Made by a program: the position numbers and the translations under genes
In this document: positions 13,692 through 36,841 of the stretch, piece by piece
Numbering within the stretch: the first letter of the stretch is position 1
How the letters are laid out: every line of letters begins with the position of its first letter
NCBI RefSeq assembly: GCF_014642675.1
Contig: NZ_BMIS01000001.1
Location: forward strand, 124,001-188,000
Direction: 5' to 3'
Length of the DNA stretch: 64,000 bases
Source of the DNA: Nesterenkonia cremea
GTDB taxonomy: Bacteria > Actinomycetota > Actinomycetes > Actinomycetales > Micrococcaceae
Notes under the pieces: generated by a model
Told to the model about the DNA's origin: nothing
Database searches by the model: none
What the model saw: the letters and a program-made list of their open reading frames with translations, nothing else

Positions 13692-14414
13692 ATGACGGAT
13701 ACGACGGCCACCACCCCGGATCCCAGCCACCTCGGACAGCTGCGCCGCGAGCGTCTGCTCGCCTCACGGCTCTACATCTGCACCGACCTCCAGCGGTTCA
13801 TCGCCCGCCCCGAGGCCGGCCCCGTGGAGGAACTGGACTTCGAGGCCCTGCGCGGCTTCCTCTCCGAGGCCTACGCCGGGGGAGTGGATATCATCCAGAT
13901 CCGCGATAAGCAGGTCTCCGCGCAGACCGAGCTCGCCGCCCTCTCCCTGCTCAAGCAGGTCGCCGATGAGCACGGGGGGCTCTCCGCCGCCAACGACCGT
14001 GCCGATCTCGCGCTGCTGGCCGGCGTCGACGTCTTCCACGTGGGTCAGGACGACCTCTCCACGGAGCAGACTCGCTTCATTCTGGGCGACGATGTGGTCA
14101 TCGGGCGCTCCTGCCGGACCTTCGAGCAGGTCAGGGAGGCCGACGGTGACATCGGCCTGGACTACTTCTGCACCGGCCCGGTCTGGGAGACCCCTACCAA
14201 ACCCGGCCGCGCCGCCGTCGGGGTGGAGCTGCCCCGGCAGGCCGCAGGGCTGGAGTCCTCCAAGCCCTTCTTCGCCATCGGCGGGATCGACGCTCAGAAC
14301 ATCGGCGAGGTCACCGCAGTGGGCACCGACCGTGTGGTCGTGGTGCGCGCCGTGACCCAGGCCGAGGATGCCCGCGCGGCCGCCGCGGCGCTGCGCGGGC
14401 GGCTCCCGGCCTGA
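13692..14414 (+). CDS. thiE: Thiamine-phosphate synthase
   Basis: Joins hydroxymethylpyrimidine diphosphate and thiazole phosphate to give thiamine phosphate. 240-residue TIM-barrel protein with the diphosphate-binding IQIRDKQ segment, NDRADLAL, the GPVWETPTKPGR loop and the C-terminal FAIGGID phosphate-binding segment. TAGGCT lies six bases before the ATG, implying leaderless transcription, so there is no room for a TPP riboswitch directly upstream. It is separated from thiOSGF by about 3.7 kb of other genes. Confidence 0.93.
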   Translation: MTDTTATTPDPSHLGQLRRERLLASRLYICTDLQRFIARPEAGPVEELDFEALRGFLSEAYAGGVDIIQIRDKQVSAQTELAALSLLKQVADEHGGLSAANDRADLALLAGVDVFHVGQDDLSTEQTRFILGDDVVIGRSCRTFEQVREADGDIGLDYFCTGPVWETPTKPGRAAVGVELPRQAAGLESSKPFFAIGGIDAQNIGEVTAVGTDRVVVVRAVTQAEDARAAAAALRGRLPA

Positions 14415-16025: not shown

Positions 16026-16125
16026 ATTCTGGGTTGAAGGGTGGACGCCGGCCGCCTCGGCTGAAAGGCTAGAATGGTCAGCACGCCGTCTGTGGTGTCA
16101 TCGCTCGCACACGGACGGCGGCCAA

Positions 16126-16196
16126 GCGGGCGTAGCTTAATGGCAAAGCTTCTGCTTCCCAAGCAGACGACGCGGGTTCGATTCCCGTCGCCCGCT
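16126..16196 (+). tRNA. tRNA-Gly (anticodon CCC)
   Basis: Cloverleaf drawn by eye: acceptor GCGGGCG/CGCCCGC with discriminator T, D-arm around GCTTAATGGCAAAGC, and anticodon stem TCTGC/GCAGA enclosing TTCCCAA (anticodon CCC). The T-arm has GGTTCGATTCC. CCA is not encoded (TCCGC follows). A strong hairpin lies 8 nt downstream. Confidence 0.96.
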
Positions 16197-16204
16197 CCGC
16201 AGCA

Positions 16205-16241
16205 CGAAGGCCGGGCACCTCAGGAAGGTGTCCGGCCTTCG
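16205..16241 (+). terminator. Terminator hairpin after tRNA-Gly
   Basis: 16-bp arms starting CGAAGGCCGG and ending CCGGCCTTCG, with one G-T wobble, flank a short CAGGA loop. Position directly after the tRNA supports factor-independent termination. The remaining ~150 bp to the methyltransferase gene shows nothing else. Confidence 0.8.
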
Positions 16242-16390
16242 GCGTCTCTGAGCTCTGGTCGGCGCAGCGTCCCGCGCCCCTGCCGAATATGCTCACCGAT
16301 CATGGCGATGCCCACCCAACGTAGGCGTGACATGGCCACGACCCCTGGGCATAGACGCTCCCGGCAGAGGGATGGCCGCTGCGCTACGGG

Positions 16391-16999
16391 TCAGGCCGGC
16401 GTCTGCGTCCGCCGGGCGATGATGTCCCACCGGTGCCAATGCTTGGGCCCGCGTCCGCTTCTGCCGTCGTATTCCTCTTCCTGGCGTTCCACGACATCCA
16501 GGCCGTCCAGCAGCTGGTCCGTCTGCGCGCGGGTGTGGAAGGTCATGCCCTCTACAGTCTGGTTGCCCGAGGCCCAGGAGTCCCGATCCCCGAGCAGGTT
16601 CACGGCCAGCACGGCACCTGGCCGCAACGCCGCGCGGAGCCGGTCCCAGACGGCGTCGAGCTCCTGAGGCGGCAGAAAGGGGAGCGTCATGCAGGAGAGG
16701 ATGAGGTCCGACGCCGGCGGCGCGAACTCTGCAAGGTCAACGGTCTGCGTGCTCAGCCGCGGATGGTCCCCGGGGCGTTGGCTGACCCAGTCGATGGAGG
16801 CCGGCTCGCGGTCCACGGCGGTGACCTGCCAGCCCTGATCGAGCAGATGCAGGGTCTCAGTGCCGTCCCCGCAGCCCAGGTCCAGGGCCTCGCCCGGCTG
16901 CTGGAAGAGTGCCGCGGCGCGGACGGCGAGCTCTCGTGGTGCGCGGCCCTCCATGGAGCGGTAGTACGCGGCCCAATCTGCATCTGCCGTGGAAGCCAT
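16391..16999 (-). CDS. Class I SAM-dependent methyltransferase
   Basis: 202-residue Rossmann-type methyltransferase. Motif I ALDLGCGDGTETLHLL is near residue 38, followed by TAVDREPAS (motif II), then DLILSCMTLPFLPPQEL and GAVLAVNLLGDRDSW typical of tellurite-resistance/UbiE-like small methyltransferases. The ATG at 16999 fits a leaderless start, with TAGGAT seven bases upstream; the frame extending to 17344 is not protein-like. Substrate unknown. Confidence 0.83.
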   Translation of the reverse strand: MASTADADWAAYYRSMEGRAPRELAVRAAALFQQPGEALDLGCGDGTETLHLLDQGWQVTAVDREPASIDWVSQRPGDHPRLSTQTVDLAEFAPPASDLILSCMTLPFLPPQELDAVWDRLRAALRPGAVLAVNLLGDRDSWASGNQTVEGMTFHTRAQTDQLLDGLDVVERQEEEYDGRSGRGPKHWHRWDIIARRTQTPA

Positions 17000-17130
17000 A
17001 CCTTCGATCCTATGGGCCCGCAGCCGACGTCTGTGTATAGGCCTTCTGCCGATGCATGCCCTGATGTGTCCATACATCCGCAGAAGCACTATGCATCCGC
17101 GGCCGTTCAACCCTTCGGTATCCTGCAGGG

Positions 17131-18099
17131 GTGGATTCCGCCGCTGACACTCCTGCTGACACTCCCGCCGAGGCCCCTGCGCCCCGCTCCGTCCCCGAGA
17201 CCCCCGCTGACCTGCTGGCCCTGGCCGCGCGCCACGGGCTGGGCCTGACCGAGGAGTCCGTGGAGTTCGTCGATTTTGGGCTGGACTATCAGGTGGCCCT
17301 CGCCGACGACGACGCCGGCCAGCGCTGGGTTCTGCGGATCCCACGCCGCCCCTCCGTGGTGGAGACCATGGCCGCCGAAGTCGCCATCCTGGACCTGGTC
17401 GGCGCCCACCTGGAGGCGGCTGTCCCGGACTGGCGGATCCGCTCCGAGGACCTCATCGCCTACCCCGCCGTGCCCGGGACCCCCGGTATGACGCTGAAGG
17501 ACGGCGAGCAGCACTGGACCCTGGATCCGGCTTCCGAGGACTACGCGCGGCGCTTCGGCACGCTGCTCGCCCAGCTGCACAGCATCGACGCCGAGAAGGC
17601 CCGCGACGCCGGCGTCGAGGTCCGCGAGCCCGAGCAGGTCCGCCAGCAGTGGCGCGAGGACATCGAGAAGGTCACCGCCCACTTCGACGTCCACCCTCAG
17701 CGCACCGCCAGCTGGCAGTACTGGCTGGCCGAGGACGCCTACTGGCCCCAGCGCACCGTCATGACCCACGGCGAGATCTACCCCGGCCACGTCCTGGTGG
17801 ACGAGAACGACGGCATCACCGGCGTCATCGACTGGACCACCGCCCGGGTGGACGACCCCGCCCGCGACCTCCTATTCTCCTATGCCATCGGCGGCGAGGA
17901 GGCCTTCACCGTCACTCTGGAGGCTTATGCCGAGGCCGGTGGTCAGCCCCGCGAGCATCTGCTGGAGCACTGCCGCATCTTCTGGTCCGCCGGAGCCGTG
18001 GGCTACGGGCTCTACGCGCTGGAGACCGGGGAGCAGGCCCACCACGACGCCGCCGCGGCCCAACTCGCCTCCGACCCCGACGGCGGTGACCCCGTATGA
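17131..18099 (+). CDS. MphA-like aminoglycoside/macrolide phosphotransferase family kinase
   Basis: 322-residue APH-fold kinase resembling macrolide 2'-phosphotransferases across its length: LAARHGLGL, FGLDYQVALADD, RWVLRIPRR, VPDWRI...LIAYP and a C-terminal YGLYALETG block. In the catalytic loop His213-Gly214-Glu215 replaces the usual His-Gly-Asp, so the catalytic base is Glu. The metal-binding Asp is in VIDWTTARVDDP (Asp234). The GTG start has TATCCT six bases upstream (leaderless). Its stop overlaps the thiO start (ATGA), making it the first gene of a thiazole-synthesis operon. It may be a macrolide kinase or a thiamine-related small-molecule kinase; the sequence favours the former, the context the latter. 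Confidence 0.8.
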   Translation: MDSAADTPADTPAEAPAPRSVPETPADLLALAARHGLGLTEESVEFVDFGLDYQVALADDDAGQRWVLRIPRRPSVVETMAAEVAILDLVGAHLEAAVPDWRIRSEDLIAYPAVPGTPGMTLKDGEQHWTLDPASEDYARRFGTLLAQLHSIDAEKARDAGVEVREPEQVRQQWREDIEKVTAHFDVHPQRTASWQYWLAEDAYWPQRTVMTHGEIYPGHVLVDENDGITGVIDWTTARVDDPARDLLFSYAIGGEEAFTVTLEAYAEAGGQPREHLLEHCRIFWSAGAVGYGLYALETGEQAHHDAAAAQLASDPDGGDPV

Positions 18100-19427
18100 C
18101 AGGAACCGCGCCTGAGCAGGGCACCGCACCCACCGCCAGCACCTCACCCCACCCCCGGACCGCGGTGATCGGGGCCGGCGTCGTCGGGCTGCTCTCGGCC
18201 TGGCAGCTGCGGCTGAGCGGGCATGCGGTGACCATCATCGCTCCCGACGCCGGCCAGGACGCCTCCTATGCGGCCGCCGGCATGCTCGCCCCGGTCAGCG
18301 AGGTCCAATACGGCCAGGATGAGCTGTGGCCGCTGATGACCGCCTCCCGAGCCGAGTACCCTGCCTTCCTGGCCGCACTGGCCCGCGCTGGGGACACCCC
18401 CACCGGCTACCGCGAGAACGGCACCATCCTGCTGGCCGCCGACCGCTCCGATCGCGACGCCGTCGCCGATCTGGTCAGCGTCCAGCAGGCCCACGGCATG
18501 GAGGTTGAGCCGCTGACCTCGCGTGAGCTGCGCAGCCGCGAACCCTCATTGGCCCCCGGTCTGGCCAAGGCCTGGGATGTGCCCTCGGACCACCAGGTGG
18601 ATCCCCGTCAGCTGGTCCGCTGCGCCGTGGATGCGTTGAACGCGCCGTTGGACACCCCGGAGTTCGCCGCAGAGTTTCCCGACGCCGGCCCGCCCGCCAC
18701 CTGGGTGCAGGCCCGCGCCGCCCGCGTGGACGCCGCCTCCGGCAGCACCCCCACAGCGTCCGGAAGCACCACGCCCGCCAGCACCAGTGACCCCAACTCC
18801 AGCCAGCCCTACACCGTCACCCTCGAGGACGGCGCCACCCTCTCCACCCAGAAGGTCCTGATCGTCCCTGGCCTGGGCTGTCCGGAGATCGCCGGTCTGC
18901 CCGAGGCCGCTCCTCTGCAGCTGCGCCCGGTCCACGGCGATGTCCTGCGTCTGCGCGGCGCCCCGGACACGGTCCGTGCTACCGTCCGGGCCACGGTCCG
19001 CGGTCGCTCGGTCTACCTGGTCCCGCGCGGCCCGGAGAGCACTGACGGCGAGGGCGGCCTGGTGGTCGGCGCCTCCTCCCGCGAGGACGGGCTCACCGGG
19101 ACCCACGCCGGCTCGGTCCAGGAGCTGCTCGACGATGCCGTCGCCGTGCTGCCGGGGGTCAAAGACATGGAGCTGGCCGAGATCACCACCCGCGCCCGTC
19201 CCGGCACCCCCGATGAGCGGCCCTATCTGGGAGCGCTGGCGGAGCATCCCGACGTCGTGGTCTCCACCGGCTACTCCCGCCACGGCATCCTGCTGGCCCC
19301 GCTGGCCGCCCGGCTCTCGGCCGCGCTGCTCAACAGTGAGAAACTGGGGGAGCGGGACAGCGCCATGCTGAAGTCGATGGCCCTGGACCGCCTGGAACAT
19401 ACACGGCCCAGCAGACGTTCCCCCTAG
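18096..19427 (+). CDS. thiO: Glycine oxidase
   Basis: FAD-dependent oxidase that makes the iminoacetate used by ThiG in thiazole synthesis. N-terminal Rossmann motif VIGAGVVGLLSAWQL, then AAAGMLAPVSE typical of ThiO, and a C-terminal ATGYSRHGILLAP-like end. At 443 residues it is longer than usual (~370). Much of the excess is a Ser/Thr/Pro-rich insertion at about 215-238 and a short VRATVRATVRG repeat near 290. It overlaps the kinase gene upstream and is followed 28 bp later by thiS. Confidence 0.9.
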   Translation: MTGTAPEQGTAPTASTSPHPRTAVIGAGVVGLLSAWQLRLSGHAVTIIAPDAGQDASYAAAGMLAPVSEVQYGQDELWPLMTASRAEYPAFLAALARAGDTPTGYRENGTILLAADRSDRDAVADLVSVQQAHGMEVEPLTSRELRSREPSLAPGLAKAWDVPSDHQVDPRQLVRCAVDALNAPLDTPEFAAEFPDAGPPATWVQARAARVDAASGSTPTASGSTTPASTSDPNSSQPYTVTLEDGATLSTQKVLIVPGLGCPEIAGLPEAAPLQLRPVHGDVLRLRGAPDTVRATVRATVRGRSVYLVPRGPESTDGEGGLVVGASSREDGLTGTHAGSVQELLDDAVAVLPGVKDMELAEITTRARPGTPDERPYLGALAEHPDVVVSTGYSRHGILLAPLAARLSAALLNSEKLGERDSAMLKSMALDRLEHTRPSRRSP

Positions 19428-19455
19428 AGCCCCCTTCAGATCCGAGCGGAGAAGA

Positions 19456-19695
19456 ATGCTCACTGTCAGTATCAATGAGGAAGACGTGAAGCTGCCCGAG
19501 GGCGCCACGCTCGTCGACGCCGTCGCGCATCTGACCGGACGCGAGCTCAACGCCGACGGGACCCCGGTGGACGGCGGCCGGCTCGGCGTGGCCGTCGCGG
19601 TCGGCTCTGCCGTGGTCCCGCGCAGCCGCTGGGCCGCCACGGAGCTCACCGGCGGCGAGGAGCTGGAGATCGTCACAGCAGTCCAGGGAGGCTGA
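19456..19695 (+). CDS. thiS: Sulfur carrier protein ThiS
   Basis: 79-residue ubiquitin-like sulfur carrier ending in Gly-Gly (VQGG), the group adenylated by ThiF and thiocarboxylated. It starts at ATG 19456 after a GCGGAGAAG-type site. Three bases separate it from thiG. Confidence 0.92.
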   Translation: MLTVSINEEDVKLPEGATLVDAVAHLTGRELNADGTPVDGGRLGVAVAVGSAVVPRSRWAATELTGGEELEIVTAVQGG

Positions 19696-20507
<812 letters not shown>

Positions 20508-20508
<1 letters not shown>

Positions 20509-21794
20509 TGACCGATATCTCCCAGTATTCGCAGAGCCAGCTGGAGCGCTTCCAGCGGCACCTCTCGTTGATCGGCTTCGGCCCGCAGGCTCAGGTCAGG
20601 CTGCTGCAGGCCCGCGTGCTGGTGGTCGGGGCCGGCGGGCTCGGCTCGCCCATCCTGACCTACCTGGCCGCGGCCGGAGTGGGCAGCATCGACGTGATCG
20701 ACCACGACGTGGTGGACCGCTCCAACCTGCACCGTCAGGTCATCCACTCCGAGGAGGCCATCGGCCGGCCCAAGACCGAATCCGCGGCCGAGGTCATGCG
20801 CGGACTCCATCCGGAGGTGCAGATCCGCGAGATCCGCGAGCCCATCACCCCGCAGAACGCCCTGGAGCTGGTGGAGCCCGCCGACATCGTGGTGGACGGC
20901 AGCGATAACTTCGCCACCCGCTACGTGGTCTCCGATGCCTGCGAGATCTCCGGGAAGCCTCTGGTCAGCGGCTCCATCCTGCGCTTCGACGGGCAGGTCA
21001 GCCTGTTCTGGTCGGCTCCCACCCAGGAGCACTGGCCCGAGGGCGGCCGCGGCCCCACCTACCGGGACCTCTACCCGGAGGCCCCCGACGCCGGCGAGGT
21101 CCCCACCTGCGCCGAGGCCGGAGTCCTCGGGGTGCTCCCAGGGGTGATCGGCACGCTCATGGCGACCGAGACCATCAAGTTCCTGGCCGGCGTCGGGAAG
21201 CCTCTGCTGGGCCGGGTGCTCAGCTACGATGCCTTGGCCGCGAGCTTCCGAGAGATCACGCTGAAGCCGGATCCGGAGCGTGAGCCGGTCACCGAGATCG
21301 GTGCCGATGTGAGTGGGCTCGGCGGGTTCAGCCCCGCCCCGGAGCATCCCGCTGCGGAGCAGTCCCCAGCAGCCCAGACAGAGCAGAGAGAAGAGCACGT
21401 GGCAGACCCGCCCGACATCCCGGTGACCCCGGGTGATATCGATCCCTTCGTGGGCGTCCCCTATGACCAGCACGACATCAGCCCCGGGGAGCTGCTGCGC
21501 CGCGTCCAGGAGGATCAGGCCCTGGTGGTCGACGTCCGCGAGCCCTGGGAGTACGCCATGGGGCACGTCGAGGGTGCGGTGAACATCCCGCTGGACCAGC
21601 TGGTCCACCCCGGGGTGGAGATACCGGGTGCCGAGGAGGCCACTGAGGAGCGGCCGCTGGTGCTCTACTGCAAGATCGGGGCGCGCTCGCGGCAGGGCCT
21701 GGACCTGCTGCGCAGCCGGCACCCGGAGCTGCCCCTGCGTAACCTGGTGGGCGGGTTCAGCGAGTTCCAGAACCATGGCCGGGTCAGCCGCTGA
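20508..21794 (+). CDS. thiF: ThiF/MoeB-type adenylyltransferase fused to a C-terminal rhodanese domain (MoeZ-like)
   Basis: Adenylates the ThiS C-terminus and delivers sulfur. Residues ~1-270 form the E1-like domain with nucleotide loop GAGGLGSPILTYLAAAG and the NLHRQVIHSEEAIG helix; residues ~325-428 are a rhodanese domain with active-site Cys in LYCKIGARSRQG. A ~50-residue acidic/Ala/Pro linker joins them. Such fusions are common in actinobacteria, where one protein may serve both ThiS and MoaD-type carriers. Last gene of the operon. Confidence 0.9.
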
Positions 21795-36671: not shown

Positions 36672-36841
36672 GATGAATATGTCCCTTTCACGGGCAGGTA
36701 CGTGCCCGACGATCCGTAGTGAAAAGTGGTTATGGTGATCCCCATCCGAGATGCAGATCAATGTGAACAGTATCACGTTCGGCCTCATTGGGTAGATTGA
36801 GGTCAGATCACAGGTGTCCCGGACAGCGGAAGGAGGGCGGG

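Follow-up and report, generated by a model that had tools for sequence, protein, structure and literature searches.

A probable chromosomal MphH-type macrolide 2'-phosphotransferase gene, apparently beside thiO by position rather than by pathway

The window analysed here is the whole stretch of 64,000 nucleotides from Nesterenkonia cremea, whose genome is G000 in the comparison across the genus. A sequence-only reading of this DNA had described, at 17131-18099, an open reading frame for a kinase with a glutamate, Glu215, in an HGE catalytic loop, and both the frame and the GAG codon of this residue were confirmed. On the 5' side lie thiE, a nitroreductase gene, a tRNA-Gly(CCC) gene and a divergent methyltransferase gene, and on the 3' side come thiO, thiS, thiG and then a ThiF/MoeB-like rhodanese gene. 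The features discussed below are the following:

13692-14414, plus strand: thiE, upstream of the variable spot
16126-16198, plus strand: tRNA-Gly(CCC), a conserved landmark on the upstream side of the spot
16391-16999, minus strand: gene for a small SAM-dependent methyltransferase of class I, reading away from the kinase gene
17119-17124, plus strand: TATCCT, candidate -10 box read by eye, six bases ahead of the kinase GTG
17131-18099, plus strand: kinase gene, predicted MphH-type macrolide 2'-phosphotransferase, 322 aa, GTG start, TGA stop
17767-17790, plus strand: catalytic-loop codons HGEIYPGH, His213 to His220 (Glu215 = MphH Glu196, His220 = MphH His201)
17773-17775, plus strand: Glu215 codon GAG, in a loop reading THGEIYPGH
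17830-17832, plus strand: Asp234 codon, counterpart of MphH Asp214
18096-19427, plus strand: thiO, glycine oxidase, whose start overlaps the kinase stop
19456-19695, plus strand: thiS
19699-20508, plus strand: thiG
20508-21794, plus strand: ThiF/MoeB-like adenylyltransferase gene with a rhodanese domain

The TGA of the kinase gene (18097-18099) and the ATG of thiO (18096) overlap as ATGA, as had also been described, and thiE is separate from thiO-thiS-thiG. The methyltransferase is TehB-like; relatives of it adjoin the tRNA-Gly and the kinase in G003 and G009 and are present at the same locus without a kinase in G001 and G029. Farther along the window, an msiK cis-regulatory RNA match of 66.7 bits was found at 36676-36734 on the minus strand.

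At E 1e-3 the only Pfam match of the kinase was APH (PF01636, E 6.8e-34). Among solved structures, the best phmmer matches were the MphH chains of 5uxb, 5uxc and 5uxd with E values of about 1e-91, followed by MphA at 1.4e-66, and identity to the MphH of Brachybacterium faecium was about 50% over nearly the full length. Eight NCBIfam Mph models, namely Mph(A), (B), (C), (E), (E/G), (F), MphL and MphM, matched nearly the whole protein with 172-226 bits, all of them below their curated cut-offs (500-650 bits), and the kinase is therefore none of those named types. The description of the protein as MphA-like throughout stands as regards an Mph-kinase match of nearly whole length, but the closer relative is MphH and not MphA. 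The predicted fold, which has a mean pLDDT of 77.2 with values below 50 in the catalytic loop (residues 212-219), matched MphH best in the PDB (5uxd_B, Z 30.0, rmsd 2.7 over 292 residues), MPH-E coming next (Z 28.6), and MphH was likewise the best Foldseek match (E 2.3e-31). Compared with MphH, that is MPH(2')-VIII of B. faecium, which is given as chromosomal in the review PMC6109786, the kinase has the same fold and the same Glu-His-Asp set, about 20 additional residues at the N-terminus and a different setting, since the neighbours of its gene, tRNA-Gly and thiO, are not those seen at the three Brachybacterium loci compared. The Mph(A) and Mph(F) of mobile elements belong to the same family (39.1% and 37.7% identity, respectively) and their genes likewise share 4 bases with the gene that follows, mrx; they differ by an HGD loop where the present kinase has HGE, by the transporter gene that comes next and by their location on plasmids. 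Among 4002 plasmid records with a match to the kinase, none reached at least 60% identity, which is in keeping with a chromosomal branch.

The glutamate in the loop had been described as standing in place of the catalytic aspartate, but reading it as a sign of changed chemistry could not be upheld. The catalytic residues of MphH are named as Glu196, His201 and Asp214 in the legend of Fig. 4 of PMC5760710, and in the alignment all three are kept in the kinase, as Glu215, His220 and Asp234. Leu31, Thr101, Trp155, Tyr198, Phe229, Gly271 and Tyr272 are conserved with MphH as well, and 3 of the 13 MphH positions compared differ (Ala200 to Gly219, Phe265 to Trp285 and Ala268 to Gly288), two of these belonging to the six that approach the cladinose. 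MphA, MphC, MphE and MphF carry an HGD loop, while HGE was present in all 40 distinct MphH-like loci examined, 7 in the genus and 33 outside it. For both MPH(2')-XV and MPH(2')-VIII, the latter assigned there to B. faecium, the review PMC6109786 describes the base as "apparently a glutamate"; our literature search found no work treating an HGE motif in macrolide phosphotransferase catalysis by that name. A catalytic anomaly was thus ruled out by the same residue in MphH, by its presence in 40 of 40 loci and by the remark of the review. Since MphH and all the branch loci examined share it, the HGE loop is what this branch ordinarily has, and it is consistent with activity as a macrolide kinase.

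As to what enzymes of this branch do, PMC3324550 reports that the B. faecium and B. paraconglomeratum enzymes, in purified form, use GTP to phosphorylate macrolides with 14-, 15- and 16-membered rings. The 2' site was demonstrated there with telithromycin for the enzyme of B. paraconglomeratum, and no aminoglycoside activity was seen with that of B. faecium, which from species, PDB titles and annotation is probably MphH itself. The kcat/Km values of the Brachybacterium enzymes on macrolides reported in the same paper are modest (about 6x10^2 to 1.4x10^4 per M per s), and its authors, in 2012, left the physiological role open, the gene context having given no obvious clue. They also named the possibility of a native substrate, and it has to be weighed here whether the protein is a kinase of MphH fold acting on some native metabolite, with macrolide activity incidental and the placement before thiO in two species being a regulatory tie. 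The modest efficiency of the relatives would agree with such a role, as would retention of the gene, which is under purifying selection between G000 and its sister species G002 (dN/dS of about 0.27, 0.109/0.399, with thiO alike at 0.098/0.422). On the other hand, the macrolide-facing residues are largely kept, and the presence of the kinase is patchy: at E 1e-40 it was found in 7 of 30 genomes of the genus (G000, G002, G003, G009, G023, G024 and G028) and in 43 of 197 family genomes, themselves a sample of a larger group, from 12 of 32 genera. This patchiness, together with varied neighbours elsewhere, fits resistance cargo better than core metabolism, and a native-metabolite kinase is regarded as rather unlikely.

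The history of the gene was followed in a kinase tree, which leaves out the copy of G009 (in two frames) and covers 13 of the 25 loci L007 and L122-L145, G030, G047, six named loci and known enzymes. In this tree the copies of the genus form a clade with two copies of genus g53 (support 100/98), within which G000 pairs with G002 (100/100) and G023 with G003 (98/91); the deeper forks do not settle whether MphH or MphA is the sister. On a ThiO-ThiS-ThiG tree serving as species proxy (26 genomes, seven of them without one or two of the three proteins), the presence of the kinase needs three changes, and the thi genes of G023 fall in another main clade than those of its kinase partner G003. These results fit an old residence at the spot, a loss in one clade of nine species and a transfer into G023.

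The association with thi genes is real within the genus: each of the seven carriers has the kinase upstream of thiO and in the same orientation. Abutment, on the other hand, is restricted to the two sister species G000 and G002, both with the ATGA overlap. Measured to the thiO position aligned with residue 19, the gap from the kinase end is 54 bases in G000 and 24 in G002, then 163 in G009, 1030 in G023, 1385 in G024, 5265 in G028 and 10,109 in G003, and rough gene calls based on codon usage place opposite-strand genes between the two in G003, G024 and G028. Around the 33 MphH-like loci outside the genus (flanks of 1.5 kb where the contig allows, and for 14 of the loci wider ones, usually of 6 to 9 kb but shorter near the end of a contig), none of thiO, thiS, thiG and thiF was found, and in the other genera examined the kinase has different neighbours. 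The linkage proposed from the sequence was thus borne out in relatives as regards the upstream position in the genus, while a conserved adjacency to thi genes fails (2 of 7 carriers, 0 of 33 loci outside). Tight junctions with a gap of -4 or -1 made up 19 of 196 same-strand neighbour pairs (rough calls, 27 genus stretches, two of them overlapping), so that a stop/start overlap by itself says little about a common function. In G009 (L049), the kinase gene and thiO are each broken into two frames, which may reflect sequence error or decay.

The tRNA is a steadier companion of the locus. The kinase lies directly behind tRNA-Gly(CCC) in five of the seven carriers, with 18-227 bases from the tRNA to kinase residue 27, and one gene separates the two in G000 and G023; in G028 (L045) the tRNA 3' end and the kinase ATG overlap. 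The same tRNA-Gly was found upstream of thiO in 14 of the 19 kinase-less loci examined out of 23 (G006, G008, G017 and G025, where thiO is missing, partial or broken, were excluded), and within the stretch covered it was not found in the other five. In seven of the 14 (G011, G012, G018-G021 and G029) it ends 2-8 bases before the thiO position aligned with residue 19, resembling what an empty site would look like, and in the remaining seven the gap runs from 96 to 2779 bases. Six of these close pairs (G011, G012 and G018-G021; loci L097, L098 and L103-L106) have a likely thiO GTG one base past the end of the tRNA-Gly called by ARAGORN, which places a glycine tRNA gene directly before the gene of a glycine-oxidizing enzyme; processing of the tRNA 3' end could leave an almost leaderless thiO mRNA there. 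The idea that an element had integrated at the tRNA and duplicated its attachment site was considered and rejected, no exact tRNA repeat of at least 11 bases being found between the tRNA and thiO in five of the seven carriers; G003 and G024 have one 11-base repeat each, inside the kinase gene and of about chance length, and a repeat search of 16050-18250 gave only short two-copy direct-repeat families. The spot is variable in gene content, but these repeat results show no integrase-type insertion. The kinase is better described as a resident of a variable tRNA-Gly(CCC)-thiO spot common to the genus than as a member of the thiazole pathway.

A more specific suggestion had been that an APH-fold kinase leading a thiazole operon might be a thiamine-related salvage kinase acting on thiamine or hydroxyethylthiazole. 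E. coli ThiK (YcfN) does belong to the APH superfamily and has the APH fold, and the overlap with thiO in G000 and G002, the place upstream of thiO in every carrier of the genus and the lack of a ThiM-type kinase (PF02110) from this genome at E 1e-3 all speak in the same direction. Against it, the kinase matches neither ThiK model (TIGR02721, PRK10271) at E 1e-3 while E. coli ThiK matches both, its alignment with ThiK has 19.5% identity, and the ThiK loop reads HMDVHAGN versus HGEIYPGH here; the ribokinase-like PF02110 domain of ThiM is likewise absent from the kinase at E 1e-3. Thiamine kinase does not appear among the 50 PDB structure matches listed, an absence that is evidence neither way. 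The lack of ThiM does not track the kinase: PF02110 matches at E 1e-3 occur in 7 of the 30 genus genomes, all partial and weak (best E 8.6e-10), two of them kinase carriers (G002 and G023), with matches above the family cut-off in three kinase-less genomes (G007, G010 and G029), and full-length matches like those of other genera (E 1e-53 or better) are found in none of the 30. A full-strength ThiM being missing with or without the kinase, its lack is general in the genus. This genome has ThiE, ThiL and a ThiD-type kinase, the last starting at C8:4865 right after a TPP riboswitch match at C8:4698-4799 (53.7 bits, gathering score 54.3); all four TPP riboswitch matches in this genome are on other contigs (150 of 176 first-look candidates scored), and at gathering score the window has none, neither before the kinase nor before thiE. 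In addition, the kinase occurs in G047 and G030, where the ThiG search gave nothing and one 59-residue match (E 6.3e-4), respectively, and a strong thiO match without the kinase is present in 19 of the 23 kinase-less genomes of the genus. No joint treatment of a macrolide kinase with thiamine genes was seen by title or abstract start among the literature matches listed. On profile, loop, distribution and linkage, a thiamine or thiazole kinase was rejected, and we consider it very improbable. The other half of the suggestion, a resistance-like gene beside the operon, agrees with the APH-fold macrolide-kinase group and with the constant place upstream of thiO in the genus. A decayed or inactive pseudo-kinase kept before thiO as a driver of transcription is hardly credible, for the frame is full-length, the catalytic residues are intact and the dN/dS against the sister species is low, and the two-frame copy of G009, which might have spoken for decay, stands next to a thiO split in the same way, suggesting sequence error.

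With regard to expression, a TANNNT box six bases ahead of the start, noticed after looking and read by eye, accompanies 6 of the 7 kinase copies of the genus (G000, G002, G003, G009, G023 and G024), including those in which thiO is distant; the background rate is 66 in 15,647 ATG/GTG words, taken from a single strand of the stretches with some words counted twice. A scan of 16050-19500 for sigma-70-type promoters found none. The box suggests that the kinase may have its own leaderless-type promoter, and since the kinase directly abuts thiO in G000 and G002, thiO in these two species is probably read from the kinase transcript.

Taken together, the gene is likely to encode a chromosomal MphH-type macrolide 2'-phosphotransferase, probably self-protective, which stands beside thiO by position and not by pathway, as judged from sequence and from analogy with the Brachybacterium enzymes. 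By that analogy, the kinase would use GTP to phosphorylate the 2'-OH of a desosamine-type sugar in macrolides of 14 to 16 ring members, the gamma-phosphate being the group transferred. Glu215 would be the base that abstracts the proton, His220 and Asp234 would make up the rest of the catalytic set, and such 2'-phosphorylation would inactivate the macrolide. Counted against this macrolide-kinase reading are the identity of only about 50%, the three changed positions, the NCBIfam cut-offs of which none was passed, the low pLDDT of the loop, the deep forks of the tree, the modest kcat/Km of the relatives and the upstream place in seven of seven carriers. A bolder idea, that actinobacterial MphH-type kinases act on a thiazole- or glycine-linked metabolite, which would be revealed where they abut thiO, or that the promoter of the kinase was taken over to drive thiO after the gene had wedged between tRNA-Gly and thiO, is considered a distinctly unlikely one.

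What is most likely a protective enzyme would thus be an additional MphH-type chromosomal kinase with the glutamate base typical of its branch, the glutamate itself being already remarked upon in the review PMC6109786. What seemed a catalytic anomaly is the signature of a known enzyme branch, and this macrolide-kinase-like branch is present in 12 of the 32 genera sampled in the family. A place beside vitamin genes can follow from a spot at the side of a tRNA rather than from a shared function, and the kinase gene gains a meaning for the environmental resistome rather than for thiamine.
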